A DNA stretch of 36,694 nt from Candidatus Aquitaenariimonas noxiae (GTDB lineage: Bacteria; Omnitrophota; Gorgyraeia; Aquitaenariimonadales; Aquitaenariimonadaceae): the NCBI GenBank assembly GCA_002780005.1, contig PEWV01000037.1, positions 1-36,694 of the forward strand, written 5' to 3'. Shown here piece by piece: positions 2,082 through 35,616 of the stretch; position 1 is the stretch's first letter; the number at the start of each line of letters is the position of its first letter. A program made the translations under genes and the position numbers. Under the pieces are notes generated by a model, which did not search any database, was not told where the DNA came from, and saw only the letters and a list, made by a program, of their open reading frames with translations.

Positions 2082-3854
2082 ATGTTAATGACATTATCAG
2101 GATTAGATTGGGGCATTATCATTCTCTATATGCTGATCTCTATCGGTATCGGCCTCTATTTCACAAAGACAGGCTCGAAAGGAATATTGGAATATTTTGT
2201 AGCCGGCAGAGAAGTGAACTGGTGGCTTGCCGGTACCTCGATAGTCGCTACAAGTTTTGCCGCAGATACTCCGCTTGCAATAGCCGCAATCGTGAGGACG
2301 AAAGGGTTACAGGGGAATTGGTACTGGTGGAGCGGTGTCATGGGCGGGGTTTTATGTGTTTTCTTTTATGCGAGGCTTTGGCGCCGGGCGGATCTTATTA
2401 CGGACGCAGAACTTCTGGAAGCCAGGTATTACGGGAAGCCGGCAGCGTTTTTAAGGTCTTTTTATGCGTGCTACCGTTCTATATTCTGGAATTCTGTAGT
2501 GCTCGGATGGGTGATATTAGCGATGTACAAGATCGTACACGTTCTCTTAGGTTGGCCTAAAGTGTTTTCAACATGGACCCTGGTTCTTATCGCCTTGGTC
2601 TATATTTTTTTCTCGGGTCTCTGGGGCGTTATAGCGACAGATTTTTTTCAGTTTATATTGGCGATGGGAGGATGTATAATATTGGCAGGTATAATTCTCG
2701 CTGATGTCGGAGGGCCTTCGGCGCTTATTACAAAATCTGTAGCCGCCGCAAAACTCGCAAATACCATGCCGCTTCAGTCAAGTGTCGTGGATTCTTCTCA
2801 GCTCGTTAACGTATTTCCCAATTTTCAGTCGTCCAGCCTTGCTATAATAACATTTCTGATTTTCATGCTGGTGCAGTGGTGGGGAGGGGGAGAGGGCGGC
2901 GGTTTTCTGGCGCAGAGGTTATTTTCCTGTAAAAATGAGAAACATTCGCTTTTAGCCGTTCTTTGGTATAATTTCGCGCACTACGCGGTGAGGCCATGGC
3001 CCTGGATAATCGTGGGCCTCGCGTCATTGATATATTTCCCTAATATCAAAGATCCGGAAACTGCTTATCCCATGATGATGATAAAATTCCTCCCTAACGG
3101 GTTGCGCGGTTTGATGATCTCGGCGTTTTTAGCGGCGTTCATGTCGACGGTGGTCACGCATATAAACTGGGGGGCGTCGTATATCGTAAACGATCTTTAT
3201 AAAAGATTTTTCGTAAGAAATGCTTCCGAGAGGCATTACGTGTGGATATCGAGGCTCTCAATAGTTTTTATGACGGCGCTCGCGGGATTTGCCTGCCTCG
3301 CTATGAATTCTATTTATTCGGCCTGGCTTTTTATCACAGCCCTTATGATGGGAACATCCTTTGTGATACTGTTGCGCTGGTATTGGTGGAGGGTAAACGT
3401 TTGGGTCGAGATAGCGTCTTTGGCGTCGACTATTTTTATTTCACTTGCCCTTTTAAGAGTGCCCGTGCTGAATACGGACGACTACTATCCGATAAGGCTT
3501 GTTATAACGCTCGTTTTTTGCACAGGGGTTTCTATTATTGTAGCCTTTTTAACGCCGCCTGAACCGATGGAACACTTGGAAAAATTTTATAGAAGAGTGA
3601 GACCGGCCGGATGGTGGGGGCCTGTGGCCATGAGGTGTAAAGACGTGGAAAAATTTCATGTAGGCACGCCTGAAATATATAGCTGGGTTTTGACTGTAGT
3701 GAGTATTTACGCAGCGCTCTTTGGGTTGGGTTGGCTCATCATGGGTATGTACTTAAGAGGTATAATAGCACTCATACTCTGCGTTCTAACGGTAATAGCT
3801 ATACTGAAAGAGATTGAAAAAATGGACTGGAAAGATGTAAAATATAAAGGTTAA
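2082..3854 (+). CDS. Sodium:solute symporter (SSS family), copy 2
   Basis: This 590-residue protein is a tandem paralogue of the preceding symporter. It shares long identical blocks, such as YWWSGVMGGVLCVFFYARLW and QWWGGGEGGGFLAQRLFSCK. The largest difference is a shorter loop before DDYYPIRLVITL and a longer, charged C-terminus. AAGG at 2067-2070 precedes the ATG at 2082; a second in-frame ATG at 2088 aligns with the other copy. The pair probably arose by local duplication. Retaining both suggests different substrates or affinities, for example a mono- and a disaccharide, which is inference. A HAD phosphatase follows 21 bases downstream, so the three genes may be co-transcribed. Confidence 0.88.
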   Translation: MLMTLSGLDWGIIILYMLISIGIGLYFTKTGSKGILEYFVAGREVNWWLAGTSIVATSFAADTPLAIAAIVRTKGLQGNWYWWSGVMGGVLCVFFYARLWRRADLITDAELLEARYYGKPAAFLRSFYACYRSIFWNSVVLGWVILAMYKIVHVLLGWPKVFSTWTLVLIALVYIFFSGLWGVIATDFFQFILAMGGCIILAGIILADVGGPSALITKSVAAAKLANTMPLQSSVVDSSQLVNVFPNFQSSSLAIITFLIFMLVQWWGGGEGGGFLAQRLFSCKNEKHSLLAVLWYNFAHYAVRPWPWIIVGLASLIYFPNIKDPETAYPMMMIKFLPNGLRGLMISAFLAAFMSTVVTHINWGASYIVNDLYKRFFVRNASERHYVWISRLSIVFMTALAGFACLAMNSIYSAWLFITALMMGTSFVILLRWYWWRVNVWVEIASLASTIFISLALLRVPVLNTDDYYPIRLVITLVFCTGVSIIVAFLTPPEPMEHLEKFYRRVRPAGWWGPVAMRCKDVEKFHVGTPEIYSWVLTVVSIYAALFGLGWLIMGMYLRGIIALILCVLTVIAILKEIEKMDWKDVKYKG

Positions 3855-16068: not shown

Positions 16069-17165
16069 AGTACGTCGACGAATTTCGAGATATTGGAATA
16101 GCTAAAAAGATACTAAAGGATATTTCCTGTCACGTAGACGGCGAATATAAAATAATGGAAGTGTGCGGCACCCATACTCAAAATATATTTAGATACGGAC
16201 TTCGTCAGCTTCTACCTAAAGAAATAAAGCTTTTTTCAGGGCCCGGGTGCCCGGTTTGCGTGTCTCCGACCAGTTTTATTGATAAGGCGATCGCGTATTC
16301 GAGAATAAGTAGTTTTATCATAGCTACATTCGGGGATATGCTAAAAGTCCCGGGTTCGAGTTCTTCTTTGGAAAAAGAAAAATCCAAAGGCGGCGACATA
16401 AGGATTGTGTATTCGAGCTTAGACGCGATAGGGATCGCCGCAAGAAATCCAGGGAAAAAAATAGTATTTTTAGGCATAGGTTTTGAGACAACAATTCCTA
16501 CTGTTGCGGCATCTGTTATCGAGGCAAAGAAAAATAGGATAAATAATTTTTATGTTCTTTCCGGGCACAAGATCATGCCGCCTGCGCTAGAGGCCTTGCT
16601 GGAAGATAAAAAAATCAGTATAGACGGTTTTATACTTCCGGCTCATGTCAGCGCTATAATAGGTTCTGTTCCTTACGAGTTCATACCGAATAAATTTAAT
16701 ATAGACTGCGTTATCGCCGGTTTTGAACCGCTTGATATCCTGCACGGCATCTATATGCTGTTAAAATCAAGATTCGACGGCTTGAAGCCGAGGGTAAGGC
16801 TGCAATATACGCGTGTCGTGAAAAGGAAAGGCAATCGAAAAGCCATCGGTCTTATAAAAGAAGTTTTTAGGCAAACCGATTCCGAATGGAGAGGGTTAGG
16901 CAACATACCGGGTAGCGGTCTAGTTTTAAGCAATGCGTATAAACAGTTCGATATAGAGATGAATAGAAAAATCATTGTAAGCCGGCCAAAAGAAAACCCG
17001 CTCTGTTTATGCGGAGAAGTTCTCAAAGGATTAAAGGTACCTCTAGAGTGTAAACTGTTCGGCAAGAGATGTACGCCCCAGGCTCCCGTAGGCGCGTGTA
17101 TGGTCTCAGGCGAGGGCACATGTGCGACATATTATAAATACGGAGAAGGAGGTCTAACGGGATGA
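16065..17165 (+). CDS. hypD: Hydrogenase maturation scaffold HypD
   Basis: This 366-residue HypD is the iron-sulfur scaffold on which Fe(CN)2CO is assembled. Conserved cysteine motifs are C34 in VCGTHTQN, C62 and C65 in GPGCPVC, and the C-terminal 4Fe-4S cluster region CLCGEV, ECKLFGKRC and GACMVSGEGTC. Length matches the family (about 360-370). It overlaps hypC by 4 bases upstream and hypE by 4 bases downstream. The last codons (GEGGLTG) double as the ribosome binding site and AGGTCTAACGGG element of hypE. Confidence 0.96.
   Translation: MKYVDEFRDIGIAKKILKDISCHVDGEYKIMEVCGTHTQNIFRYGLRQLLPKEIKLFSGPGCPVCVSPTSFIDKAIAYSRISSFIIATFGDMLKVPGSSSSLEKEKSKGGDIRIVYSSLDAIGIAARNPGKKIVFLGIGFETTIPTVAASVIEAKKNRINNFYVLSGHKIMPPALEALLEDKKISIDGFILPAHVSAIIGSVPYEFIPNKFNIDCVIAGFEPLDILHGIYMLLKSRFDGLKPRVRLQYTRVVKRKGNRKAIGLIKEVFRQTDSEWRGLGNIPGSGLVLSNAYKQFDIEMNRKIIVSRPKENPLCLCGEVLKGLKVPLECKLFGKRCTPQAPVGACMVSGEGTCATYYKYGEGGLTG
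17146..17161 (+). promoter_or_regulatory. Ribosome binding site and AGGTCTAACGGG element before hypE
   Basis: AAGGAGGTCTAACGGG at 17146-17161 runs directly into the hypE ATG at 17162. The AGGAGG at 17147-17152 is the ribosome binding site. Bases from AGGAGG or GGAGG to the start are the same as before the hydrogenase large subunit (26311) and the flavoprotein (35038). No upstream complementary arm is seen here because the element lies in hypD coding sequence. Confidence 0.6.
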
Positions 17166-18165: not shown

Positions 18166-18195
18166 AGCGTTTAGCGGTTAGCGTATAGCGATTAG
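18166..18195 (+). repeat. 30-base direct repeat, copy 1
   Basis: This stretch, composed of degenerate TTAGCG words (starting AGCGTTTAGCGGTTAGCG and ending ATAGCGATTAG), is identical over 30 bases to 23656-23685. It begins 3 bases after the hypE stop codon. It has no obvious hairpin. Copy 2 occupies the same kind of position, just after a stop codon. Confidence 0.8.
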
Positions 18196-23655: not shown

Positions 23656-23685
23656 AGCGTTTAGCGGTTAGCGTATAGCGATTAG
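23656..23685 (+). repeat. 30-base direct repeat, copy 2
   Basis: Identical over 30 bases to 18166-18195 and again located immediately (4 bases) after a stop codon, this time between the AsrB-like gene and the polyferredoxin gene. It fills most of the 41-base gap and leaves only a weak ribosome binding site (GGAAAG) for the next start. Confidence 0.8.
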
Positions 23686-24170: not shown

Positions 24171-24206
24171 TTAGTAGTTAGTAGTTAGGGATTAGGGGTT
24201 GGGGAA
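24171..24206 (+). repeat. TAGTAGTTAGGG-type intergenic spacer, copy 1
   Basis: The gap between the polyferredoxin and NuoH-like genes is filled by degenerate TTAG words (TTAGTAGTTAGTAGTTAGGG and further). The final GGGGAAG acts as ribosome binding site. Similar spacers follow the stop codons at 25715 and 34450. Confidence 0.6.
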
Positions 24207-25137: not shown

Positions 25138-25279
25138 GAAAAATACGAAATTCGAAGCACGAAATACGAAACAATATCTAATGACGAAAATTCAAATGTT
25201 CAAAACGTTAGGTTTTGAACATTCAGATATTCAAATTTCGGATTTGTTTCGAATTTCGGATTTCGGGTTTCGAATTTAA
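25138..25279. repeat. Large palindromic repeat, TTCGAAATTCGG family
   Basis: This 154-base gap is a near-palindrome. The centre is a perfect 12-base stem, AATGTTCAAAAC (25195-25206) with GTTTTGAACATT (25212-25223), around a 5-base loop. The left flank is rich in ACGAAA/TTCGAA words and the right flank in their complements (TTTCGAATTTCGG). An in-frame TTG-started extension of the next gene runs through it but is rejected as coding. Confidence 0.7.
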
Positions 25280-25289
25280 GAGTAACCAT

Positions 25290-25715
25290 ATGAACTTAAA
25301 ATTAAAAGCATTATTAAAATCTCCATGGGTTTTTCACGTAGCAACAGGTAGCTGCAATAACTGCGATATAGAAATAATAGACTGCCTTACACCGCGCTAT
25401 GATATTGAAAGATTCGGAATGGTTTTAGCCGGCAGTATAAGGCACGCCGATATTCTGCTTTGCACAGGGATAGTTACAAAGCAATGCGCGCCCAGGCTTA
25501 AACGCGCATACGAACAGGCGCCAAAACCGGTAATTGTAGTAGCGATAGGGGCATGCGCGTGCAGTCAGGGTATTTTTAAGGACAGCTACACGGCAACCGT
25601 GCCTATGGACCAAGTCGTCCCTGTGGATGTTTACATACCGGGATGCCCGCCAAAACCTGAGGCAATAATTGCGGGTGTGACAAAGGTGATAGAGAAGATT
25701 AGAAAAAGTAGCTAG
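25290..25715 (+). CDS. mbhJ: NiFe hydrogenase small subunit (NuoB/EchC/MbhJ-like)
   Basis: This subunit holds the proximal 4Fe-4S cluster next to the NiFe site. The ATG at 25290 gives 141 residues. The upstream extension to a TTG at 25215 is translated from the palindromic repeat and is not believed. Cluster ligands are C22 and C25 in TGSCNNCDIE, C89 in GACAC and C119 in PGCPPKP. DCLTPRYDIERFG is typical of group 4 small subunits. Length matches the Ech and Mbh equivalents. Confidence 0.9.
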   Translation: MNLKLKALLKSPWVFHVATGSCNNCDIEIIDCLTPRYDIERFGMVLAGSIRHADILLCTGIVTKQCAPRLKRAYEQAPKPVIVVAIGACACSQGIFKDSYTATVPMDQVVPVDVYIPGCPPKPEAIIAGVTKVIEKIRKSS

Positions 25716-25748
25716 GGGTTAGTAGGCAGTAGGTAGGGAGCAGAGGAT
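25713..25748 (+). repeat. TAGTAGTTAGGG-type intergenic spacer, copy 2
   Basis: The 34-base gap begins in the stop codon of the small-subunit gene and consists of CTAGGGGTTAGTAGGCAGTA-like words. It resembles the spacers at 24171 and 34448 in composition and position but is not an exact copy. Confidence 0.5.
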
Positions 25749-25749
25749 A

Positions 25750-26202
25750 ATGGATAGAAAAGAGATTCTAGAAAATATACAAGGCGTTTTAGGTAATAAA
25801 ATTAAAAAATTCTACGAGAAGTCAGAAAAACGTGTTTATATAGACATAGAACCGAAAGACTTGATCGAAACAGTTACGTTTATATTCAAAAAATTAGGCG
25901 CGAGATTCAGCATAGCTAGCGCTATTGACAGACCGGATGGGACTGAAATTATGTACCATTTTTCATTCGATCAATACGGAATGATCGTTTCATTCCGTGT
26001 CTTTATGAAAGAAAGGATCGGGGTCAAGGTCGACTCTATTACGCCGATATTTATAGGAGCGGAATGGATCGAGCGCGAGATGCATGAACTTTTTGGTATA
26101 GATTTTATCGGGCATCCGAATCTCAAGCGCCTGCTGTTACCGGACGATTGGCCCTCTGATAAACACCCTTTGAGGAAGGATTATAAGAATGAGTTCCGTT
26201 AG
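25750..26202 (+). CDS. mbhK: NuoC-like hydrogenase subunit (EchD/MbhK-like)
   Basis: This 150-residue 30-kDa-subunit-like protein has the signature [33 protein letters not shown] at residues about 116-148, as in complex I NuoC and Mbh. It is a structural subunit that packs between the small and large subunits and has no cofactor of its own. Its TAG stop lies inside the left arm of the CCGTTAGACCT inverted repeat at 26196-26206. Confidence 0.88.
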
Positions 26203-26310
26203 ACCTTTTAAAGAAACTTTGTGTATGTTCGATTTTATATTTAGAAGAATTCTTTATATGATTATGTTCATGAAAACGGTTACATTAATTTATATGGGAG
26301 GTCTAACGGG
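26196..26310 (+). promoter_or_regulatory. Inverted repeat covering the ribosome binding site of the large-subunit gene
   Basis: CCGTTAGACCT at 26196-26206 is perfectly complementary to AGGTCTAACGG at 26299-26309, with 92 bases between. The right arm overlaps the last bases of the ribosome binding site GGGAGG (26296-26301) and ends one base before the ATG at 26311. The left arm contains the stop codon of the upstream gene, so ribosomes finishing that gene would open the stem. The 108-base gap holds no other gene. Confidence 0.6.
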
Positions 26311-27501
26311 ATGAGCCATAGGACTATAATACCTATAGGCCCATATCACCCACTGCAAGAAGAGCCGGAATTTTATCAGCTTCTGGTGGAAGGGGAGAAA
26401 GTCATCGATATAGATGTCAGGATCGGGTATAATCATAGGGGAATAGAGAAACTGTCCGAATCTAAATCGTTTGATAAAGCGGCATATCTTGTGGAAAGGA
26501 TATGCGGTATATGCTCGACAAGCCACCCTCTTGCTTTTGTGCAGGCCGTTGAAAATATATCTAATATAGAAGTGCCTGAAAGGGCCCTTTACATAAGGAC
26601 GATAATCGCCGAGCTGGAGAGGATTCATTCTCATCTTTTGTGGGTAGGCTTGGCAGGCCATTTTCTCGGATATAATACAATTTTCATGTGGGCTTGGAAG
26701 TATAGAGAATCCATTCTTGACGTTTTTGAAACTATTTCTGGAAACAGGAATCACTATGGCATGATGAAGGTCGGCGGCGTGAGACGGGATATGTATGAAA
26801 AAGACTTTCCATGGATTACGCGGGAACTTGATAAAGTAGTAGATAAAGTTATTATGCTTAAAGGCGCCGTCTTGGACGACCCGGTCATTCACGCACGCAC
26901 AAAAGGGGTCGGAGTTTTGACAAAGGACGATATTATAAATTATTGCGCGCTCGGCCCAACGGCAAGAGCGTCCGGAGTTGATATTGATGTGAGGCGAGAC
27001 GATCCCTATGCTGTTTATAATAAACTAGATTGGAAAGTTATAGTGCGACAAGAAGGAGATGTATTCGCAAAGACAGTTGTAAGGGTTTTGGAAACATTGG
27101 AATCTTTAAAAATAGTAAAACAGTGCCTAGAGAATATGCCGAAAGGTGAAATAGACTCCAAGCCAAAAGATATACCGCCGGGCGAAGGTATAGGCCGCGC
27201 CGAGGCGCCAAGAGGCGAGGTTATACACTACGTGAGGAGCGACGGGTCGAACTCAGCGGTCCGTCATAAGATAAGAGCGCCGACATTCATGAATTTTCCT
27301 ACTTTTAAGAAATCAATTGTCGGCCAGACAGTTACGGATGCCACTATCATACTTGCTGCGATAGACCCGTGCTATTGTTGCACAGAGAGGCTAACCGTTA
27401 TAGACGCAAAATCGAACAAAGAAGTCATGGGAAGTAGGGAATTGATAAAACTCTCGCAAGAAAAAACAGCTTTGCTTAAAAAAGAAATGGGTATCGAATA
27501 A
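26311..27501 (+). CDS. mbhL: Group 4 NiFe hydrogenase large subunit (NuoD/EchE/MbhL-like)
   Basis: This 396-residue catalytic subunit binds the NiFe(CN)2CO centre. Both cysteine pairs survive: R63-I-C65-G-I-C68 with H72 in RICGICSTSH, and C354 and C357 in DPCYCCTER (352-360). It is therefore a true hydrogenase and not a quinone-type or sulfane-type NuoD relative. A tail of 36 residues follows R360, consistent with removal by the maturation protease encoded at 34486. SRHR/NRNHYGMMKVGGVRRD-like and PRGEVIHYVRSDGS blocks are typical of group 4. The stop overlaps the next start by one base. Confidence 0.93.
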   Translation: MSHRTIIPIGPYHPLQEEPEFYQLLVEGEKVIDIDVRIGYNHRGIEKLSESKSFDKAAYLVERICGICSTSHPLAFVQAVENISNIEVPERALYIRTIIAELERIHSHLLWVGLAGHFLGYNTIFMWAWKYRESILDVFETISGNRNHYGMMKVGGVRRDMYEKDFPWITRELDKVVDKVIMLKGAVLDDPVIHARTKGVGVLTKDDIINYCALGPTARASGVDIDVRRDDPYAVYNKLDWKVIVRQEGDVFAKTVVRVLETLESLKIVKQCLENMPKGEIDSKPKDIPPGEGIGRAEAPRGEVIHYVRSDGSNSAVRHKIRAPTFMNFPTFKKSIVGQTVTDATIILAAIDPCYCCTERLTVIDAKSNKEVMGSRELIKLSQEKTALLKKEMGIE

Positions 27502-29153
27502 TGTTAAAACAAGAGTTTTTTAAATTTGATAAGCTATCCGTTTTTGTAGCCATATTCATAATTTTCTTTACGGCCGTAGTGTTGCTATATTCTTCCGGGT
27601 TTATGCGCCGGAGAAAAAATCTTATTTTTTATTATCTCTATCTGATCCTTACGTCGATAAGCGCGCTTGGCGCTGTTTTTTCTGAAAATCTTTTATTATT
27701 TATGGTATTTTGGGGATTTTTAGGGGTACTTCTTTATTTATTGATAGGGTTCGGCGACAAAGACCGCACGTCAAGCACGGCCAAGAAGACTTTTATAATA
27801 GTCGGCGGGTCGGATGCAATTATGCTTTTAGGATTGGCGCTTGTATGGCGAATTTCAGGTTCTTTGCAAATGAGTCAGTTGAGTATAACCTTGGATACGA
27901 GAATAGCGATTTTGGCGTATCTATGCCTGGCTATAGGGGCATTTGCAAAAGCAGGGGTTATGCCTTTTCATACATGGGTCCCTGATACCGCAGAGGATGC
28001 TCCTGTCCCCGTTGCCGCATTTTTGCCGGCGTCTTTAGATAAACTTCTGGGAATATATTTTCTTGCGAGAATTACACTTTATATGTTCAAGATGGATTTA
28101 GCGATGAATATGATTTTAATGGCAATAGGCAGTTTCACGATCGTAGCCGCAGTTATGATGGCCCTTATACAGCATGATCTCAAAAGATTATTAGGGTATC
28201 ATGCAGTAAGCCAAGTCGGATATATGGTATTAGGGATAGGGACAGGCAACCCGGTTGGAATAGCCGGCGGGTTATTCCATATGCTGAATAACGCGATATA
28301 TAAAAGTTGCCTTTTTCTTTCAGGCGGTGCGGTCGAGAAAAAAGCCGGGACAACTGATTTAGAAAATTTGGGTGGTTTTGCTAAATACATGCCCATCACA
28401 TTCATCACGTTTTTAATAGCCTCGTTTGCCATATCGGGCATTCCGCCTTTTAACGGTTTTGTCTCTAAGTGGATGATCTATCAAGGAATAATCGAGACCG
28501 GCAAAAATGGCGGGTATTCCTGGATATTGTGGCTTGTTGCTGCGATGTTCGGGAGCGCATTGACGCTTGCCAGTTTTATGAAATTGATACATTCAGTATT
28601 TTTAGGCCAGCCGTCCGCCAAACAAAAAATTTCAGATTTGAAATACCAGGAAACTGTCCCTACAATGTGGATCCCTGCAGTAATTCTGGCATCTTTATGC
28701 GTAATCTTTGGCGTGTTTGCTTATAGTATACCGCTTAAGATGTTCATTTTTCCAAGCCTGAAGGAGAATGTTTCTTTTTACGGCGTGTGGAATGCCGGCC
28801 TCGCAACGGTTTTGATACTGGCCGGAATTATTCTAGGCCTTATTATATATTTTATAGGCACAATAGCCAGGACGAGAGATTCAGATGCTTTCATAGGGGG
28901 AGAGGTTTTAGAAAAAAATCCTGACATGAGAGTTTCAGGAACCGAATTTTACGACACGATCAAGGATGCGGGCATATTGAAGATATTTTATAGATTAGCC
29001 GAGAGAAAGGTATTTGATATTTATAATATCGGAACAAGAATAACTTTCGGTTTCAGCGGAGTCCTCCGCTCTATTCATAATGGCGTATTGCCTTCGTATT
29101 TAGCGTGGTGCCTGCTCGGGCTTTTATTTTTGTTTTACAAATTGTTCAGGTGA
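27501..29153 (+). CDS. Antiporter-like membrane subunit (NuoL/M/N, MrpD family), divergent
   Basis: This 550-residue subunit is related to ion-pumping NuoL/M/N and MrpD proteins. It keeps the half-channel lysines in AIGAFAKAGVMPFHTWVPDT and ASLDKLLG, and YHAVSQVGYMVLG. Three features are odd. It begins at the third family helix (FDKLSVFVAIFIIFF), so about two N-terminal helices are missing. The helix-5 glutamate is replaced by G72 in FMVFWGFLGVLLYLLIGF. And it has a C-terminal extension from about residue 445 (GGEVLEKNPDM, FYDTIKDAGILKIFYRLAERK, two helices) that may act as a lateral helix, like MbhI or NuoL. It may be a structural linker and not an active pump. Confidence 0.8.
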   Translation: MLKQEFFKFDKLSVFVAIFIIFFTAVVLLYSSGFMRRRKNLIFYYLYLILTSISALGAVFSENLLLFMVFWGFLGVLLYLLIGFGDKDRTSSTAKKTFIIVGGSDAIMLLGLALVWRISGSLQMSQLSITLDTRIAILAYLCLAIGAFAKAGVMPFHTWVPDTAEDAPVPVAAFLPASLDKLLGIYFLARITLYMFKMDLAMNMILMAIGSFTIVAAVMMALIQHDLKRLLGYHAVSQVGYMVLGIGTGNPVGIAGGLFHMLNNAIYKSCLFLSGGAVEKKAGTTDLENLGGFAKYMPITFITFLIASFAISGIPPFNGFVSKWMIYQGIIETGKNGGYSWILWLVAAMFGSALTLASFMKLIHSVFLGQPSAKQKISDLKYQETVPTMWIPAVILASLCVIFGVFAYSIPLKMFIFPSLKENVSFYGVWNAGLATVLILAGIILGLIIYFIGTIARTRDSDAFIGGEVLEKNPDMRVSGTEFYDTIKDAGILKIFYRLAERKVFDIYNIGTRITFGFSGVLRSIHNGVLPSYLAWCLLGLLFLFYKLFR

Positions 29154-29156
29154 TTT

Positions 29157-29705
29157 ATGATGCAGATATATCTATTATTGGGAGCGATGATCGTAGTAGC
29201 TATATTGGCGGTGGAGCTTAAGGATTTACTCTCTTCGATTGTCGCCTTGGGGGCAGTAGGGCTATTATTGTGCATAGCTTTCATAACGCTGAAAGCCCCG
29301 GACGTGGCTATTACCCAGCTTGTCGTAGAAATTCTATGCCTTATCATATTAATTAGGGCTACGTTAAAAAGAGACCTTCCTTTTTCAACGACCGGAAGAT
29401 GGTTTCTTAACACGCTTATTGCCGTTATTTTTATAAGCGTATTCTTGCTCGTCGCGGCGAAATGCCTAAAAGATCTACCTCAATTCGGTTATCCGATTAT
29501 GCGGGTTGCCGGCACATACCTGAAAGAGGGGATGACTAAAACCGGAGCCGCTAATATAGTTTCATCGATAGAACTCGATTACAGGGCATATGATACTTTA
29601 GGCGAGGCAACTGTTTTATTTGCAACAGTCATAGGTATTTTAGCGATCGTTAGGAAATCAGGCGTAAAAAAGGAAGGCGAAGAGGATAGCGAAGAAAATG
29701 AATAA
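29157..29705 (+). CDS. MrpA C-terminal-like subunit (MbhD and MbhE fused)
   Basis: This 182-residue membrane protein has about five or six helices. The first part (KAPDVAITQLVVEILCLIIL) matches MbhD/DUF4040. The second (GAANIVSSIELDYRAYDTLGEATVLFATVIGI) matches MbhE. Together they correspond to the C-terminal region of MrpA, which in Mbh is two separate proteins. In Mrp and Mbh this region forms part of the sodium path. It ends 8 bases inside the mrpB start. Confidence 0.85.
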   Translation: MMQIYLLLGAMIVVAILAVELKDLLSSIVALGAVGLLLCIAFITLKAPDVAITQLVVEILCLIILIRATLKRDLPFSTTGRWFLNTLIAVIFISVFLLVAAKCLKDLPQFGYPIMRVAGTYLKEGMTKTGAANIVSSIELDYRAYDTLGEATVLFATVIGILAIVRKSGVKKEGEEDSEENE

Positions 29706-30147
29706 AACAAACGAAAAGGGCATGTCATTGATAGTAAAAACAATCACCCGTCTTACGGTTGGTATTATGCTTCTTTACGGCATCTATATCATCTCTCACG
29801 GACATCTTACGCCTGGCGGCGGTTTTGCCGGAGGGGTGATTATAGCGCTTTCTTTCGTTAACCTTATGCTGGCATACGGTAAAGAAGTTACCTTAAAAAA
29901 ACTGCCTAAGGGGGTGGCATCTTTTTTTGAAGGCATGGGTGCCATATTATTTTTAGGGATAGCGCTCCTCGGGTTTACGGGCGGATATTTCTTTTTTAAC
30001 TTTATAGCCAAGGGGGAGCCTTTCAGGCTTTTTAGCGCCGGCATAATACCGCTGTTTAATATTGCTATAAGCCTTAAAGTTGGTGCCGGACTTTTTGCCA
30101 TATTTATTTCTTTAGTTCTATTAAAAATTGAGGCTGAGAAAAAATAA
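29698..30147 (+). CDS. mrpB: Mrp antiporter subunit B (MnhB/MbhF-like)
   Basis: This 149-residue protein has four helices and carries the MnhB signature YIISHGHLTPGGGFAGGVIIALSFV. It is part of the Mrp-type cation/proton module of the hydrogenase and overlaps the preceding gene by 8 bases. Confidence 0.92.
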   Translation: MNKTNEKGMSLIVKTITRLTVGIMLLYGIYIISHGHLTPGGGFAGGVIIALSFVNLMLAYGKEVTLKKLPKGVASFFEGMGAILFLGIALLGFTGGYFFFNFIAKGEPFRLFSAGIIPLFNIAISLKVGAGLFAIFISLVLLKIEAEKK

Positions 30148-30172
30148 TGAGTTATTCACGCGAGGTCGTATT

Positions 30173-30511
30173 ATGAAAGTGTATTTACTTTGTCTCGGGT
30201 TATTCTGTATAGGCCTTTACTGTATTTTAAGAAAACGCAATATCATAAAGATTATTCTTGGTTTTATCATAGCCGAGTATGCCGTGAATTTATTTTTTAT
30301 ATTGGCCGCTTACCGCATGGAAGGCCGCTCTCCTATATTTGCGCCGGACGCTAAGATAGTGAATATGGTTGATGCGCTGCCGCAAGCGTTAGTGCTTACG
30401 GCGATAGCTATTGGTTTGGCAAACGTAGCGCTATTGATAAGCATCGCCCTCCGGATATATGACAAATACGGTACTTTTGATATAACGAAGATCAGGGAGC
30501 TTAGGGGATGA
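30173..30511 (+). CDS. mrpC: Mrp antiporter subunit C (MnhC/NuoK/MbhG-like)
   Basis: This 112-residue three-helix NuoK-like subunit contains LGFIIAEYAVNLFFI (with the conserved helix glutamate), DALPQALVLTAIAIGLAN and LRIYDKYGT, all typical of MnhC. The ATG at 30173 is chosen because GAGG at 30162-30165 is correctly spaced. The longer TTG-started frame from 30128 would overlap mrpB without a binding site. The stop overlaps the next start (ATGA). Confidence 0.92.
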   Translation: MKVYLLCLGLFCIGLYCILRKRNIIKIILGFIIAEYAVNLFFILAAYRMEGRSPIFAPDAKIVNMVDALPQALVLTAIAIGLANVALLISIALRIYDKYGTFDITKIRELRG

Positions 30512-32016
30512 AACTATTTGTTGATATAATACCGCTTTTTGTAGCCGTTCCTATGGCAGGGGCGTTTCTTATTGCGCTCGTCGCAAGAAAGATAAAATGG
30601 CTGCCCGCGCTTATCACGAATATAATAACTATAGGCCTGGTTTTTGTTTCTTTTTTTGCGGTTAAATTGATAAATATTCACAAGGTTTTAGTATATGACG
30701 TAGGCGCGTGGAAACCGCCGATGGGTATAGGAATGGTCTTGGACGGTTTTACTGTCTTCATGCTTACGACAGTTAATTTAGCGGCGTTTTTTGTCGCCAT
30801 CTACTCGATAAATTATGTGGAGCGTTTCACTTCTAAATGGAAATTTTATACGCTTTTCTTATTTATGATCGCAGGCGCTAACGGTGTTGTCATAACCGGC
30901 GATATATTCAATTTATTTGTCTTTCTTGAGATAGCATCTATAGCCAGCTGTTCCCTAATCGCATTCGGAACAGAAAAACATGATCTGGAAGCAGCATTCA
31001 AATACGCGGTTATGAGCGGGGTTGGTTCGCTTTTTATTTTGCTCAGTATAGTTTTATTATATAGCTACACTTCAACGTTAAATATGGCGGATATATCCAA
31101 TGTATTGGCGCAAAAGGACCCTAATAACATTATTCTTATGATTAGTGCGCTATTAATAATGGGTTTCGGGCTGAAGGCAGGCCTCGTGCCTTTTCATGGG
31201 TGCCTGCCGGATGCCTATACTTCGGCCCCGGCACCCGTATCAGCAATGTTGGCAGGTGCAATAACAAAATCATTAGGTTTGTACGCTATTTTTAGAATAT
31301 TTTATAATGTGATCGGAATGAATCAGGCATTGTCTTCTATTTTTATGTTTTTTGGCGCTTTGTCTATGATTGTCGGAGTTATCTTGGCAATAGGGCAGTG
31401 GGATTTTAAGCGCCTTTTAGCATATCACTCTATAAGCCAAATGGGCTACATTGTTATGGGGATAGGGCTCGGTACGCCGCTCGGGATATTAGGCGGATTA
31501 TTTCATCTTTTTAATCACTCGGTTTTTAAGACCCTCTTGTTCTTGAATTCCGGCTCGATAGAATATGCGACAGGGAAGCGCGACCTTCAAAAAATGGGAG
31601 GGCTAAGCGAACAAATGCCGGTGACAAGCGGAACATGCCTGGCAGCATCAATGGCAATATCAGGGATTCCACCTTTCAATGGTTTTTGGAGCAAATTTAT
31701 TATTATCATTGCGGCAGTTCAGGCAGGCAGATATGGGTACGCCTTCTTGGCTGTTTTGGCAAGTATTTTGACATTGGCATCTTTTACAAAAGTTATGAAA
31801 TACGCATTTTTTGGCAAACTGAAAGATGGGGCGAATAGCGTAAAAGAAGCTCCTTTTCTGATTAAGCTATCTATGACGTCCTTGGCCGTTATATGCATTA
31901 CCGGAGGAATCCTGCTTGCGCCTGGGGTATATGAACATTTTTTAAAAGAAGCCGTAGACGTTATTTTGGAAGGAACTAAATATTCTTCCGTAGTCTTACA
32001 GGCGGTGCTTAAATGA
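30508..32016 (+). CDS. mrpD: Mrp antiporter subunit D (MnhD/MbhH-like)
   Basis: This 502-residue protein with about 14 helices is a canonical ion-translocating subunit. E141 in NLFVFLEIASIAS is the conserved helix-5 glutamate. GLKAGLVPFHGCLPDAYTSAPAPVSAMLAGAITKSLG holds the helix-7/8 lysines, and YHSISQMGYIVMGIG follows. Unlike the related protein at 27501, nothing essential is missing, so this is the likely pump. It overlaps mrpC and mrpE by 4 bases each. Confidence 0.92.
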   Translation: MKLFVDIIPLFVAVPMAGAFLIALVARKIKWLPALITNIITIGLVFVSFFAVKLINIHKVLVYDVGAWKPPMGIGMVLDGFTVFMLTTVNLAAFFVAIYSINYVERFTSKWKFYTLFLFMIAGANGVVITGDIFNLFVFLEIASIASCSLIAFGTEKHDLEAAFKYAVMSGVGSLFILLSIVLLYSYTSTLNMADISNVLAQKDPNNIILMISALLIMGFGLKAGLVPFHGCLPDAYTSAPAPVSAMLAGAITKSLGLYAIFRIFYNVIGMNQALSSIFMFFGALSMIVGVILAIGQWDFKRLLAYHSISQMGYIVMGIGLGTPLGILGGLFHLFNHSVFKTLLFLNSGSIEYATGKRDLQKMGGLSEQMPVTSGTCLAASMAISGIPPFNGFWSKFIIIIAAVQAGRYGYAFLAVLASILTLASFTKVMKYAFFGKLKDGANSVKEAPFLIKLSMTSLAVICITGGILLAPGVYEHFLKEAVDVILEGTKYSSVVLQAVLK

Positions 32017-32513
32017 AAAAGAGCAAAATAATATTATTTATCTTAGCATTCATCATATGGATTTTTTTAAATTGGAAACCGGATTGGCAGCATCTTCTTG
32101 TGGGTTTCTTCATAGCGGTTTTTGTTTCTTACATAACAGGCGACTTGTTTATATATAGGGCTTATATTTTAAAAAATCCTCTTCGTTACTGGTATTTCGC
32201 ATTTTATTATATTCCGATATTTTTATGGGAGTGCGTAAAGGCAAATTTTGACGTTGCCTATCGGGTGATACATCCGGCGCTGCCGATTAATCCCGGCATT
32301 GTCAAAGTGAAGACGAGCCTGAAAACAGACACGGGCCTTACATTTTTGGCCAATTCTATAACACTTATGCCAGGGACATTGGTCGTTGATGTCAATAGGG
32401 AAGAAGGTGTTTTATACGTGCATTGGATCGACGTAAAGTCGAAAGATGTCGAAGCGGCCACAAAAATTATTGTTGAGCGTTTTGAAAAAATACTTAAGAA
32501 AATATTTGAATAG
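32013..32513 (+). CDS. mrpE: Mrp antiporter subunit E (MnhE/MbhA-like)
   Basis: This 166-residue protein has N-terminal helices (about 7-50) and a soluble domain containing KTSLKTDTGLTFLANSITLMPGTLVVDV and YVHWIDV, the MnhE signature. It is needed for assembly of Mrp complexes, and its equivalent in Mbh is MbhA. The start overlaps the mrpD stop (ATGA). Confidence 0.93.
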   Translation: MKKSKIILFILAFIIWIFLNWKPDWQHLLVGFFIAVFVSYITGDLFIYRAYILKNPLRYWYFAFYYIPIFLWECVKANFDVAYRVIHPALPINPGIVKVKTSLKTDTGLTFLANSITLMPGTLVVDVNREEGVLYVHWIDVKSKDVEAATKIIVERFEKILKKIFE

Positions 32514-32527
32514 GATATAATTCACAT

Positions 32528-32905
32528 ATGAAATTGGGAAAAATTCTTAGATGGATTTTAGGGGTATTCGTTTTCGGAGGGGTGCTTGCCGTTATTATTT
32601 TAAAACCCCTGCCTTTTCTTTTCTATCACAACCTTCCGCGCCTAGGTTTTCTTGGGAGGGCTATTTATATTTTTATTTTAGCGTCTTTTATGTGTATATA
32701 TCGCATAGGAAAAGGCCCGACTGGCGCTGACCGTATCGTGGCTTTAGATATTTTAGGCATCATGATCGTTGGGTTATGCGCAATACTCACGATTTCCACG
32801 GGTAGGTCGTGGTATATAGATATAGGGATAGCATGGGTGCTTCAGAGTTTCATAAGCACGCTGGCGCTCGCCAAATATTTAGAGGGTAAGGGCTTCGATG
32901 AATGA
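32528..32905 (+). CDS. mrpF: Mrp antiporter subunit F (MnhF/MbhB-like)
   Basis: At 125 residues it is longer than typical MrpF (about 90) because of an extra N-terminal helix (about 8-28). The family core starts near residue 40 and includes RIGKGPTGADRIVALDILGIM, with the conserved aspartate. It is part of the sodium path in Mrp and overlaps mrpG by 8 bases. Confidence 0.9.
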   Translation: MKLGKILRWILGVFVFGGVLAVIILKPLPFLFYHNLPRLGFLGRAIYIFILASFMCIYRIGKGPTGADRIVALDILGIMIVGLCAILTISTGRSWYIDIGIAWVLQSFISTLALAKYLEGKGFDE

Positions 32906-33224
32906 TCTTATAGGATTTATATTAATAAGTATCGGCTTAGTCTTTGATCTGCTAGGCTGCGTGGGCCTTGTGCGCCTTCCTGACGCGTACAATCGCCTGC
33001 AAGCGGCCACTAAGTGCGTTACCATGGGTACCTGCAGTATCCTATTCGGAACATTACTAGTTATCGGCTTTACAGCCGCAGGCATGAAAGTTATATTATG
33101 CATGATATTTCTTATACTGACATCTCCGGTGGCATCGCACGCTATAGCCAGAGGCTCCCATAAGTCAGGGGTAAAGCTTTGGGAGGGCAGCGTTTGCGAT
33201 GCATACGCCGAAGATAATAAGTAA
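32898..33224 (+). CDS. mrpG: Mrp antiporter subunit G (MnhG/MbhC-like)
   Basis: This 108-residue three-helix protein contains VGLVRLPDAYNRLQAATKCVTMG and the C-terminal LTSPVASHAIARGSHKSG, the MnhG signature. It completes the Mrp set A(C-term)-B-C-D-E-F-G, leaving MrpA's N-terminal NuoL-like part as the only missing piece; the subunit at 27501 may take that place. Confidence 0.93.
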   Translation: MNDLIGFILISIGLVFDLLGCVGLVRLPDAYNRLQAATKCVTMGTCSILFGTLLVIGFTAAGMKVILCMIFLILTSPVASHAIARGSHKSGVKLWEGSVCDAYAEDNK

Positions 33225-33233
33225 GGGGAATCT

Positions 33234-33848
33234 GTGGAATTAAAAGAATTAAAAAGTAATATCATCGATATGGCTAGAGAGGTTGAGGAGATCATAGATT
33301 TGATCTCAAAAGGTTTCATTGAAAATAAATCCGAGTACCTTGATGAGGCGCTAGATAAAGAAAAAGAGGTCAATATCCTTGAAAAGAGCCTTACCAAAGG
33401 CATTCTTAATATTTCTCGCCAGACTTTTGATAAAGATTTTAAGGAAGAGCTTGTAGTATTGTCGCAGGTAATAGAGAGTTTAGAGAGAATGGGGGATGAG
33501 TGCGCGGGTTTGATCGAGCGGATAGAAATAAAAATACAGGAAAAGTTGCTATTTCCTGATATAGGCGTTGAAGAATTCAATGAGGTTTATAATATGATGA
33601 AAGTTTCGGTAGCGGGTATGATCAAGATTTTAAGGCACCCTAAGGGTGAAGTTGAAGCGAAAGAAGTTATCTCCAATGGCTTTAAAATCAAAGACCTTAT
33701 AGAAAGATATAGAAAGGCCCACGCTGAAAGGCTTGTTAAAGGGATGTGCGACCCAAGGGCATCAAATATGTATTTTGATATGCTTGACTTTACAGGAAAT
33801 ATAGCGCGCCATTCGTCTAATATAGTAAAAACATTAATCGCAAAATGA
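33234..33848 (+). CDS. PhoU-like helical protein
   Basis: This 204-residue all-helical soluble protein has a PhoU-like pattern: long amphipathic helices with the acidic clusters ESLERMGDECAGLIERIE and FDMLDFTGNIARHSSNIVKTLI, which in PhoU bind metal clusters. The start is GTG with AGGGG 5 bases upstream. PhoU domains regulate phosphate transporters or sit on Na/Pi symporters. Its place inside a hydrogenase operon, between mrpG and the NuoI-like subunit (which it overlaps by 4 bases), suggests an accessory or regulatory subunit of the complex. This is inference. Confidence 0.6.
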   Translation: MELKELKSNIIDMAREVEEIIDLISKGFIENKSEYLDEALDKEKEVNILEKSLTKGILNISRQTFDKDFKEELVVLSQVIESLERMGDECAGLIERIEIKIQEKLLFPDIGVEEFNEVYNMMKVSVAGMIKILRHPKGEVEAKEVISNGFKIKDLIERYRKAHAERLVKGMCDPRASNMYFDMLDFTGNIARHSSNIVKTLIAK

Positions 33849-34450
33849 GATATCCAAAACTGCGGGAACTGGGAGAAGCTTTAAGGTCTTTATTCTTTAG
33901 GCCTTATACATCATCTTTTCCAAAAGTTCCACATAAACCTGCTGAAAGATTCAGGGGTAAGCCGGAATATTTTGAAAAATATTGCGTCGGCTGCCTGGCT
34001 TGCGAAGAGGTGTGTCCCGCGAATACAATAGAGCACGAAGATATAACAGAAGGGAACAAGCCGATAAGGCGGATAACGCTGCATCTTGATGTTTGTCAAT
34101 TCTGCGGAAACTGCCAAGCTAATTGTATAACGGAAAAAGGTATACAGTTGACGCAAAAATTCGAATTATCTACATTTGACAGAAAAGACGCCACCAGCGT
34201 CGTTGAGAAGGAACTTGTACTGTGCCAGGATTGCGGAGAAATTATTGCATGCAAGGACCATCTTGTTTGGATAGCAGAAAAAATAGGCCCGCTTGCCTTC
34301 TCTAACCCGACGCTATTTTTGTCTAAACTAAAGGTTTTAGGCATTGTAGACAAGGATCTGGGAAGGACAGTAATCGAAGGCCTTACGCGCGGTGACCGCA
34401 TGAAAATCATATGCGCCAAATGCCGCAGGAAAACGACGTTTGAAGACTAG
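33845..34450 (+). CDS. mbhN: Hydrogenase ferredoxin subunit (NuoI/EchF/MbhN-like)
   Basis: This 201-residue two-cluster ferredoxin has C47/50/53/57 in CVGCLACEEVCP and C84/87/90/94 in CQFCGNCQANC, the NuoI pattern that passes electrons to the proximal cluster of the small subunit. The C-terminal extension carries further CxxC pairs (CQDCGE and CAKCRR), a possible zinc or extra cluster site also seen in other hydrogenase ferredoxins. In Mbh this subunit accepts electrons from soluble ferredoxin. Confidence 0.85.
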   Translation: MRYPKLRELGEALRSLFFRPYTSSFPKVPHKPAERFRGKPEYFEKYCVGCLACEEVCPANTIEHEDITEGNKPIRRITLHLDVCQFCGNCQANCITEKGIQLTQKFELSTFDRKDATSVVEKELVLCQDCGEIIACKDHLVWIAEKIGPLAFSNPTLFLSKLKVLGIVDKDLGRTVIEGLTRGDRMKIICAKCRRKTTFED

Positions 34451-34482
34451 TAGTTAGTAGCTAGGGGCTAGTAGTTAGGGGG
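34448..34482 (+). repeat. TAGTAGTTAGGG-type intergenic spacer, copy 3
   Basis: Starting in the stop codon of the NuoI-like gene, the 35-base gap is built of TAGTTAGTAGCTAGGGGCTA-like words. It resembles 24171-24206 most closely. GGGGG at the end may serve as a weak ribosome binding site for the protease gene. Confidence 0.6.
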
Positions 34483-34485
34483 CGT

Positions 34486-34974
34486 ATGGAAGAAACCTTA
34501 AGCGATGTTAAATCAGAATTGATTAAATGCGTAAACGGAAAGAAGGTTGCCATTGTCGGTATTGGAAACCTTGAGAAGGGCGATGATGGGTTTGGAGTTC
34601 TTTTAACCGAACGGTTAAAAACCAGACTTAAAAATACGGCGCTTTTTGAATGCGGAACAGCCCCGGAAAATTATTTAGGCCCGATTATCAGATCGAACCC
34701 TCAAGTTTTATTGGTACTAGATGCGGCAAATTTAAGAGCCGAACCGGGCCATGTTCATATCCTGGAAGCGAAGGAGATCGCCGACTTGGGACTCTCGACG
34801 CACGATTCGTCGTTAAATCTTTTTATAAAATTTCTAAGGCACGAACTTAAGGAAGTGGATATTTTTTTGGTGTGTATGCAACCCAAAAATACGGATTTTG
34901 GAAAATGCATAAGCAAAGAATTAGAAAAACATCTGTCAGAACTTGAAAAAATACTTGTAGAGATGTTATCATGA
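34486..34974 (+). CDS. Hydrogenase maturation endopeptidase (HycI/HybD family)
   Basis: This 162-residue nickel-sensing protease removes the C-terminal tail of the NiFe large subunit after nickel insertion. The N-terminal motif is GIGNLEKGDDGFG (residues 25-37), VLLVLDAANLRAEPG carries the central Asp ligand, and LSTHDSSL the His ligand, as in HybD and HycI. It is the last gene of the hydrogenase operon, and its natural substrate is the 36-residue tail predicted on the large subunit. Confidence 0.9.
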   Translation: MEETLSDVKSELIKCVNGKKVAIVGIGNLEKGDDGFGVLLTERLKTRLKNTALFECGTAPENYLGPIIRSNPQVLLVLDAANLRAEPGHVHILEAKEIADLGLSTHDSSLNLFIKFLRHELKEVDIFLVCMQPKNTDFGKCISKELEKHLSELEKILVEMLS

Positions 34975-34975
34975 A

Positions 34976-35038
34976 CCCCGTTAGACCTTATGATGGGTGT
35001 AGTGGGGGATTTATTATTATAAAGGAGGTCTAACGGGG
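34976..35038 (+). promoter_or_regulatory. Inverted repeat covering the start of the flavoprotein gene
   Basis: CCCCGTTAGACCT at 34976-34988 is perfectly complementary over 13 bases to AGGTCTAACGGGG at 35026-35038, with a 37-base loop. The right arm includes the last three bases of the AAGGAGG binding site (35022-35028) and the first base of the GTG start. The left arm starts 2 bases after the protease stop. The same element precedes the genes at 26311 and 17162. Confidence 0.65.
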
Positions 35039-35616
35039 TGAAAAAGGTCCTAGCTATATTAGGCAGCCCTAGAAGGTGGGGAAATGCAGAACTTCTTTTG
35101 GAAGAATTCCTAAAAGAATTCAAAAAGAAGAGGTTTACCGTAAAAAAAATAATTGTAAGCGAACTCAATATAAAGCCATGCACTAATTGCGGCCGTTGTG
35201 CTAAAACAGGCCGGTGCGTCATTAGGGATGATATGGATAAGGTGTATGAAGAGCTTAAAGATGCAAATTGTCTTGTTATAGCAAGTCCGATATATTTTAC
35301 AAGCCTTCCCGGACAATTGAAGATATTGATCGATAGATGCCAGGTATTCTGGGCCAGATTTTTTGTACTTAAGAAACCCGTAAAATTTAAGGACAAAAGA
35401 TACGGGGTGTTTTTGTCGGTATGCGGATACCGCTTGCCGAGAATGTTCAATTGTGCTATAGTTATGGTCAAAATATTATTCAAGGTTCTTAATTTTGAAT
35501 TTTATGGAAAGGTGGTCGTTCCTAACATAGATAAAAAAGGAGATATATTGAAAGAAACAAAAATGCTTTCGAAAACTAGGAAACTAGCTAAAAAACTTAT
35601 AAAGGAGATTGAATAA
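35038..35616 (+). CDS. Iron-sulfur flavoprotein / NADPH-dependent FMN reductase family
   Basis: This 192-residue flavodoxin-fold protein has the FMN-binding start LGSPRRWGNAE and SPIYFTSLPGQLKILIDRC. The cysteines C48, C51, C54 and C60 in CTNCGRCAKTGRC match the compact 4Fe-4S motif of iron-sulfur flavoproteins. These proteins move electrons between ferredoxin and small acceptors such as O2, H2O2 or quinones in anaerobes. The GTG start has a strong AAGGAGG. It follows the hydrogenase operon and may be co-transcribed, but the hairpin suggests separate translational control. Confidence 0.82.
   Translation: MKKVLAILGSPRRWGNAELLLEEFLKEFKKKRFTVKKIIVSELNIKPCTNCGRCAKTGRCVIRDDMDKVYEELKDANCLVIASPIYFTSLPGQLKILIDRCQVFWARFFVLKKPVKFKDKRYGVFLSVCGYRLPRMFNCAIVMVKILFKVLNFEFYGKVVVPNIDKKGDILKETKMLSKTRKLAKKLIKEIE

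Follow-up and report, generated by a model that had tools for sequence, protein, structure and literature searches.

Short palindromic elements with 4-bp target duplications in genes and at stop/start junctions of Candidatus Aquitaenariimonas noxiae and other bacteria

Described relatives and the copies in the window

The nearest known kinds of sequence to the elements analysed here are the Rickettsia palindromic elements (RPEs), bacterial MITEs and REPs. RPEs (Ogata 2000, 2002; reviewed in PMC10969869 and PMC2229807) are about 105-150 bp long, have been described from Rickettsia and carry a CGTC tag at one end (PMC3733652); table 1 of PMC2229807 gives no established target duplication for them. 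Our elements resemble RPEs in being palindromic, non-autonomous and inserted without a frameshift (here 25 of 26) in protein-coding genes, some of them conserved, but differ from them in their CCCCGTTAGA ends, their size (mostly 29-53 bp in the public set, among the matches listed), their sharp 4-bp duplication and their spread over several phyla; the CGTC tag (a feature taken from PMC3733652) is absent, and the family ends are CCCCG/CGGGG. MITEs such as Correia/NEMIS, RUP and ERIC (PMC2229807) are likewise short and transposase-less, with terminal inverted repeats and a target duplication, but differ in that their interior is conserved and many have a parent insertion sequence, whereas the new family has a free interior, no parent that we found, and mostly shorter members. 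REP/REPIN sequences (PMC3733652; PMC3116915) share with it a length of tens of bp, a hairpin and tens of copies per genome; in contrast to them, the new elements have a flanking duplication, do not adjoin RAYT genes and are often intragenic, and the GTAG end tetranucleotide (PMC3733652) is absent from their ends. In the open-access literature our search met no description of the element sequence, of the peptides that it encodes or of palindromes from Omnitrophota or candidate phyla, and an earlier description in subscription journals is possible. Mobile repeats of comparably small size, some tens of bp, have reportedly been described from cyanobacteria (SDR) by Elhai and others.

The window, the whole 36,694-nt stretch of Ca. 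A. noxiae DNA that we analysed, holds a 118-bp and a 63-bp copy (Table 1). An initial annotation had described inverted pairs at both places, with loops of 92 and 37 nt and arms extended to 13 bases before the flavoprotein gene, all of which are found in the sequence: the 63-bp element has perfect 13-bp arms (CCCCGTTAGACCT at 34976-34988, AGGTCTAACGGGG at 35026-35038) around a loop of 37 nt. It had also placed each right arm over the end of a ribosome binding site, reaching the start codon, and this is seen at both pairs. The right arm of the 118-bp element carries the Shine-Dalgarno sequence GGGAGG and the first base of the hycE ATG (26311), and the last G of the 63-bp element is base 1 of the flavoprotein GTG (35038). 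The left arms, said to lie at or just after the upstream stop, begin just past the hycI TGA in one case and enclose the nuoC TAG in the other. By domain content, the first junction joins a nuoC-type gene (PF00329) to that for the hydrogenase large subunit, hycE (PF00346, PF00374), and the second a hycI protease gene (PF01750) to one for an FMN reductase-type flavoprotein (PF03358).

A solo 11-mer right arm before hypE (17150-17160), missing from the initial annotation, has no left partner and forms no hairpin by sequence scan and RNA folding; since the left arm is absent, this is probably a truncated copy. The 11-mer pair is present in a third full copy on another contig (C72), where yggT lies on one side and a gene for a nucleoside phosphorylase on the other. 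A scan of the window against Rfam 15 at gathering score gave no RNA family match.

Table 1. Positions of the element copies and their parts in the window
Feature	Coordinates	Strand	Basis or remark
Left 4-bp target duplication TGAG, nuoC/hycE junction	26190-26193	+	Sequence; identical to 26312-26315
118-bp palindromic element TTCCGTTAGACCT...AGGTCTAACGGGA, nuoC/hycE junction	26194-26311	+	Sequence; relatives show element-free ATGA overlap
Left arm CCGTTAGACCT of 118-bp element	26196-26206	+	Sequence match
nuoC stop TAG within left arm of 118-bp element	26200-26202	+	
Right arm AGGTCTAACGG of 118-bp element	26299-26309	+	Sequence match; loop 92 nt
Right target duplication TGAG, from base 2 of hycE start codon	26312-26315	+	Sequence
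Left target duplication TGAA, including hycI stop TGA (34972-34974)	34972-34975	+	Sequence
63-bp palindromic element CCCCGTTAGACCT...AGGTCTAACGGGG, hycI/flavoprotein gene junction	34976-35038	+	Sequence
Right target duplication TGAA, from base 2 of flavoprotein GTG	35039-35042	+	Sequence
Right half alone (AGGTCTAACGGGA), last hypD codons into hypE ATG	17150-17162	+	Sequence

The window also contains a separate repeat class, intergenic degenerate 7-nt arrays (18166-18195, 23656-23685, 24172-24204, 25707-25752 and 34448-34480) made of units AGCGTTT, AGCGGTT, AGCGTAT and AGCGATT or TTAGTAG, TTAGGGA and TTAGGGG; two arrays are identical over 30 nt. The gap before the hydrogenase small subunit gene (25141-25277) consists of CGAAATT-type units arranged as an imperfect inverted repeat of 66 nt.

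The family, its target duplication and its empty sites

The 11-mer pair first reported is real, yet its extent had been underestimated: CCGTTAGACCT/AGGTCTAACGG is one variant of a larger palindrome family, CCCCGTTAGA...TCTAACGGGG, 22 to about 126 bp long and flanked by a 4-bp duplication. The exact 11-mer occurs at 8 sites in the 1.93-Mb assembly, compared to 0 for a reversed control, and a mismatch-tolerant search left only TCTAACGGGG and its complement as the fixed part. In Ca. A. noxiae this 10-nt core is found at 17 sites in forward and 16 in reverse orientation (reversed control, 0 and 1). Thus, chance is excluded by counts far above those of the controls. Nearly all of these core sites stand in facing pairs, and the genome has about 18 intact copies, while a genome of the same class from another family (G014) has 84 forward and 84 reverse core sites and about 84 copies. 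Where one arm is perfect, so is its partner in 30/33 cases in Ca. A. noxiae and 62/67 in G014. One exact 11-mer in coding DNA (C59:4225) has no partner arm and is taken as a chance match.

The outermost base pair of the element is C-G or T-A, and the inner stem bases vary yet pair (ATT/AAT, CCT/AGG, GAT/ATC, ACT/AGT, AAG/CTT). The matches listed include 87 distinct public elements that are 30 nt or longer; in these, Watson-Crick pairing at inner positions 11, 12 and 13 is found in 82, 72 and 57 elements, compared to shuffled means of 36, 41 and 28, and falls to chance level deeper than position 13. The compensatory changes in the arms that the initial annotation had proposed to look for are therefore present, as covariation of the inner stem positions. 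Like MITEs, the elements have terminal inverted repeats, here 10-nt perfect ends continued by the paired inner stem. Tandem pairs with just one 4-nt spacer between the two elements, as well as three-armed copies, also occur (L086, L092, L094, L101 and L105 in G014; L096 and L103), and look like the outcome of insertion of elements into one another or of recombination between them.

The second MITE feature, a target site duplication, is exactly 4 nt long here. Flanking direct repeats of exactly 4 nt were found for 72 of 140 distinct elements from public genomes and viral contigs (among the matches listed), when 13.4 were expected from re-paired flanks; repeats of exactly 3 nt and 5 nt were found in three cases and one, respectively. 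The duplication accompanies 13/18 copies in Ca. A. noxiae (2.6 expected) and 28/39 in G014 (8.2 expected). The duplicated target is YNNR, with Y first and R last in every case and T and A at these positions in 88%; the words are mostly TTTA/TAAA or TTCA/TGAA, often with G before and C after. In the window, for example, positions 34972-35042 read TGAA-CCCCGTTAGACCT...AGGTCTAACGGGG-TGAA. About half of the public copies among the matches listed have no exact duplication, and among these are hairpins of another kind, phage terminators for instance; the copies in one genome (G054) are mostly intergenic and mostly without duplication.

Empty sites were found in two settings. One locus (L209) has three tandem pilin genes, two with an element at TTTA and one without, such that the empty site atgaaaaaatcatttacgttggttgaa can be compared to the filled site atgaaaaaatcattta[53-bp element]tttacgctgatcgag. 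At the hycE junction, about 12 of 29 orthologues in the class start with an ATGA that overlaps the upstream TGA and have no element, several of them reading ATGAGCCATA; removal of the element and one TGAG copy from the window leaves ATGAGCCATAGG. The nuoC reading frame in the window differs from that of element-free relatives, with its stop now in the left arm; thus, this stop is not simply that of the relatives. The orthologues of the C72 phosphorylase gene showed no clean empty junction, because the gene neighbourhood differs.

Within Omnitrophota the distribution is patchy inside genera, with exact copies in 75 of the 384 genomes (none for the control). At least 119 stretches of GTDB genomes contain the long pattern without mismatch; they come from Omnitrophota, Patescibacteria, Nitrospirota, Desulfobacterota-type bacteria, Planctomycetota, Elusimicrobia, Bacteroidales and further groups. 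Since base-count arithmetic predicts about seven chance matches in 257 Gb, single hits without duplication (e.g. Rhizobium) were given no weight. Twenty stretches of IMG/VR contigs also match, several of them terminator-like; in four viral contigs (L225, L226, L231, L232) the stems extend outward, one with T runs, and these are probably terminators that share the core. One contig filed under Aenigmatarchaeota (L131) carries bacterial-type chemotaxis genes beside the archaeal hit and may be mis-binned.

Insertions in genes and at stop/start overlaps

Copies inside genes preserve the reading frame. For public elements among the matches listed, element length plus 4 was divisible by 3 in 25 of the 26 lying inside ORFs of at least 150 aa, compared to 41 of 95 elsewhere (p=3e-7). 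The peptides added in frame are NPVR..SNGV or TPLE..LTGF, and the proteins that carry them include IF-2, PNPase, DNA polymerase I, ETF-beta, a RACo-type activator, a pyridine nucleotide oxidoreductase, a GH57 protein and pilins. Solved homologues of PNPase and ETF-beta have a gap where the peptide is inserted, and in the pilins the target lies within the processing motif, GFTLIE becoming FTPLE..LTGFTLIE.

We conclude that the paired arms are very probably the ends of a non-autonomous mobile palindrome that duplicates a YNNR target and is tolerated in frame within genes and at stop/start overlaps. The mobile palindrome that the initial annotation had offered as one of two explanations finds strong support in the 4-bp duplications, the empty sites, the multi-phylum spread and the in-frame insertions in genes, but not its confinement to start codons: 11 of 18 copies in the Ca. 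A. noxiae genome have no start at the edge. In the mechanism that we propose, an element whose fixed parts are CCCCGTTAGA and TCTAACGGGG, with a stem that runs a few bases further inward through compensatory changes, inserts into a 4-bp YNNR target and thereby duplicates it. From the duplication of the target over 4 bp, we infer an enzyme whose cuts in the two strands are staggered by 4 bp. Two of the three frames on each strand are open in the element, and an intragenic copy is thus tolerated as an in-frame peptide when 3 divides its length plus 4.

At gene junctions, an upstream stop at the left edge combined with an element whose last base is base 1 of the start codon occurs in 6/17 copies in Ca. 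A. noxiae and 11/38 in G014, and the outermost pair, C-G or T-A, determines whether the start is GTG or ATG. Under a looser rule, for which a start at the element edge was sufficient, a Shine-Dalgarno-like arm was found in 5/7 such copies in Ca. A. noxiae compared to 0/11 other copies (p = 0.0025), and in 22/22 compared to 11/17 in G014 (p = 0.004). All five Shine-Dalgarno-bearing copies in Ca. A. noxiae have GGAG in the start-facing arm and lack it in the opposite arm. This arrangement suggests that start-facing arms became adapted as ribosome binding sites: either the site was improved after insertion, or copies of this kind were retained. In Ca. A. noxiae and G014, a variant with AGG/CCT (or AGT/ACT) inside the core occupies TGAA or TGAG at ATGA stop/start overlaps. 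There the left duplication or left arm retains or supplies a stop, while the right arm, ending in G or A, restores the Shine-Dalgarno sequence and the start codon, such that overlapping genes are separated with both left intact.

The other explanation first offered was a selected RNA hairpin that couples translation. In such a hairpin the left arm would mask the ribosome binding site, and a ribosome finishing the upstream gene would open it. Several observations fit a role of this kind. RNA folding gives the hairpins z-scores between -2.5 and -5.0, the arms covary, the upstream stop lies at the left arm and the Shine-Dalgarno sequence in the right, GGAG is on the start-facing arms, and arm pairing (30/33, 62/67) outlasts the duplications (13/18, 28/39). 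However, the element cannot have originated as such a hairpin, since a start at the edge is lacking in most copies and many are intragenic, with arms equally well paired there; it predicts neither the 4-bp duplication nor the empty sites, and the right arm before hypE stands alone. As a secondary use of the mobile palindrome, coupling is possible, though we tend to doubt it. Masking holds in the sense that the folded stem takes in part of the Shine-Dalgarno sequence; a ribosome at the left-arm stop might cover that arm, and the RNA hairpin could in this way keep translation of the two genes coupled.

Candidates for the mobilising enzyme

Movement of the elements as REP/REPIN sequences by a RAYT (Y1 tyrosine transposase) seems unlikely. 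They are indeed short multi-copy palindromes, and Y1_Tnp (RAYT) genes are present in 11/13 distant element-bearing genomes and in 10/12 element-bearing Omnitrophota, but these genes are nearly as common in element-free Omnitrophota relatives (8/12), and some element-bearing genomes (incomplete assemblies) have no Y1_Tnp match. Moreover, an element lies within 1.5 kb at only 3 of 60 RAYT loci and on both sides at none, the GTAG tag is lacking, and variable but matched 4-bp duplications are unexpected from single-strand transposition. DDE_Tnp_1 is missing from Ca. A. noxiae and other element-bearing genomes, and showed no linkage at 20 loci.

Among the loci examined, no transposase gene was flanked by element copies, and no autonomous insertion sequence with the same ends was found there, at unpaired arms, or at the 60 RAYT and 20 DDE_Tnp_1 loci. 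The search for autonomous copies, in which arms 130-4500 bp apart with equal 4-mers were sought, gave only separate short elements, pilin pairs and the 105-bp and 40-bp elements of one contig (L191). Of these last, the 40-bp element (1791-1830) resembles an internal deletion of the 105-bp element (about 3429-3533). The unpaired arms in G014 and G041 have variant or decayed partners.

Intrinsic transcription terminators, which would account for the G+C-rich stem and for some IMG/VR matches with longer stems and T runs, are a very improbable explanation of the family, given that the sequences downstream of the window copies are GATGAG and GTGAAA rather than T runs and that these copies are located within operons or genes. 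Integron attC sites have the box order RYYYAAC ... GTTRRRY. GTTAGAC/GTCTAAC resembles these boxes and the CCT variant fits both 7-mers, but the order here is reversed (GTTRRRY first), the commonest variants (GTTAGAA, GTTAGAG) do not match the box and there are intragenic copies flanked by 4-bp duplications, such that an attC origin is barely credible.

Our fullest account is of a single family of CCCCGTTAGA-ended palindromes with 4-bp YNNR duplications, moved within and between many bacterial phyla, perhaps in recent time, by an undescribed enzyme encoded elsewhere than beside the elements, with one lineage whose built-in ribosome binding site and start base allow it to split overlapping genes and assume their coupling. 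We regard this combination as plausible, while leaning slightly against its holding in every part. As a transposable unit the family is very small, it shows a clear target duplication and a multi-phylum range, and its enzyme can now be sought. The recurrent NPVR..SNGV and TPLE..LTGF peptides in proteins of uncultivated bacteria are explained as insertions, which is relevant to annotation and structure work. Finally, the junction copies illustrate how overlapping gene ends can accommodate mobile DNA, which there turns into a ribosome binding site.
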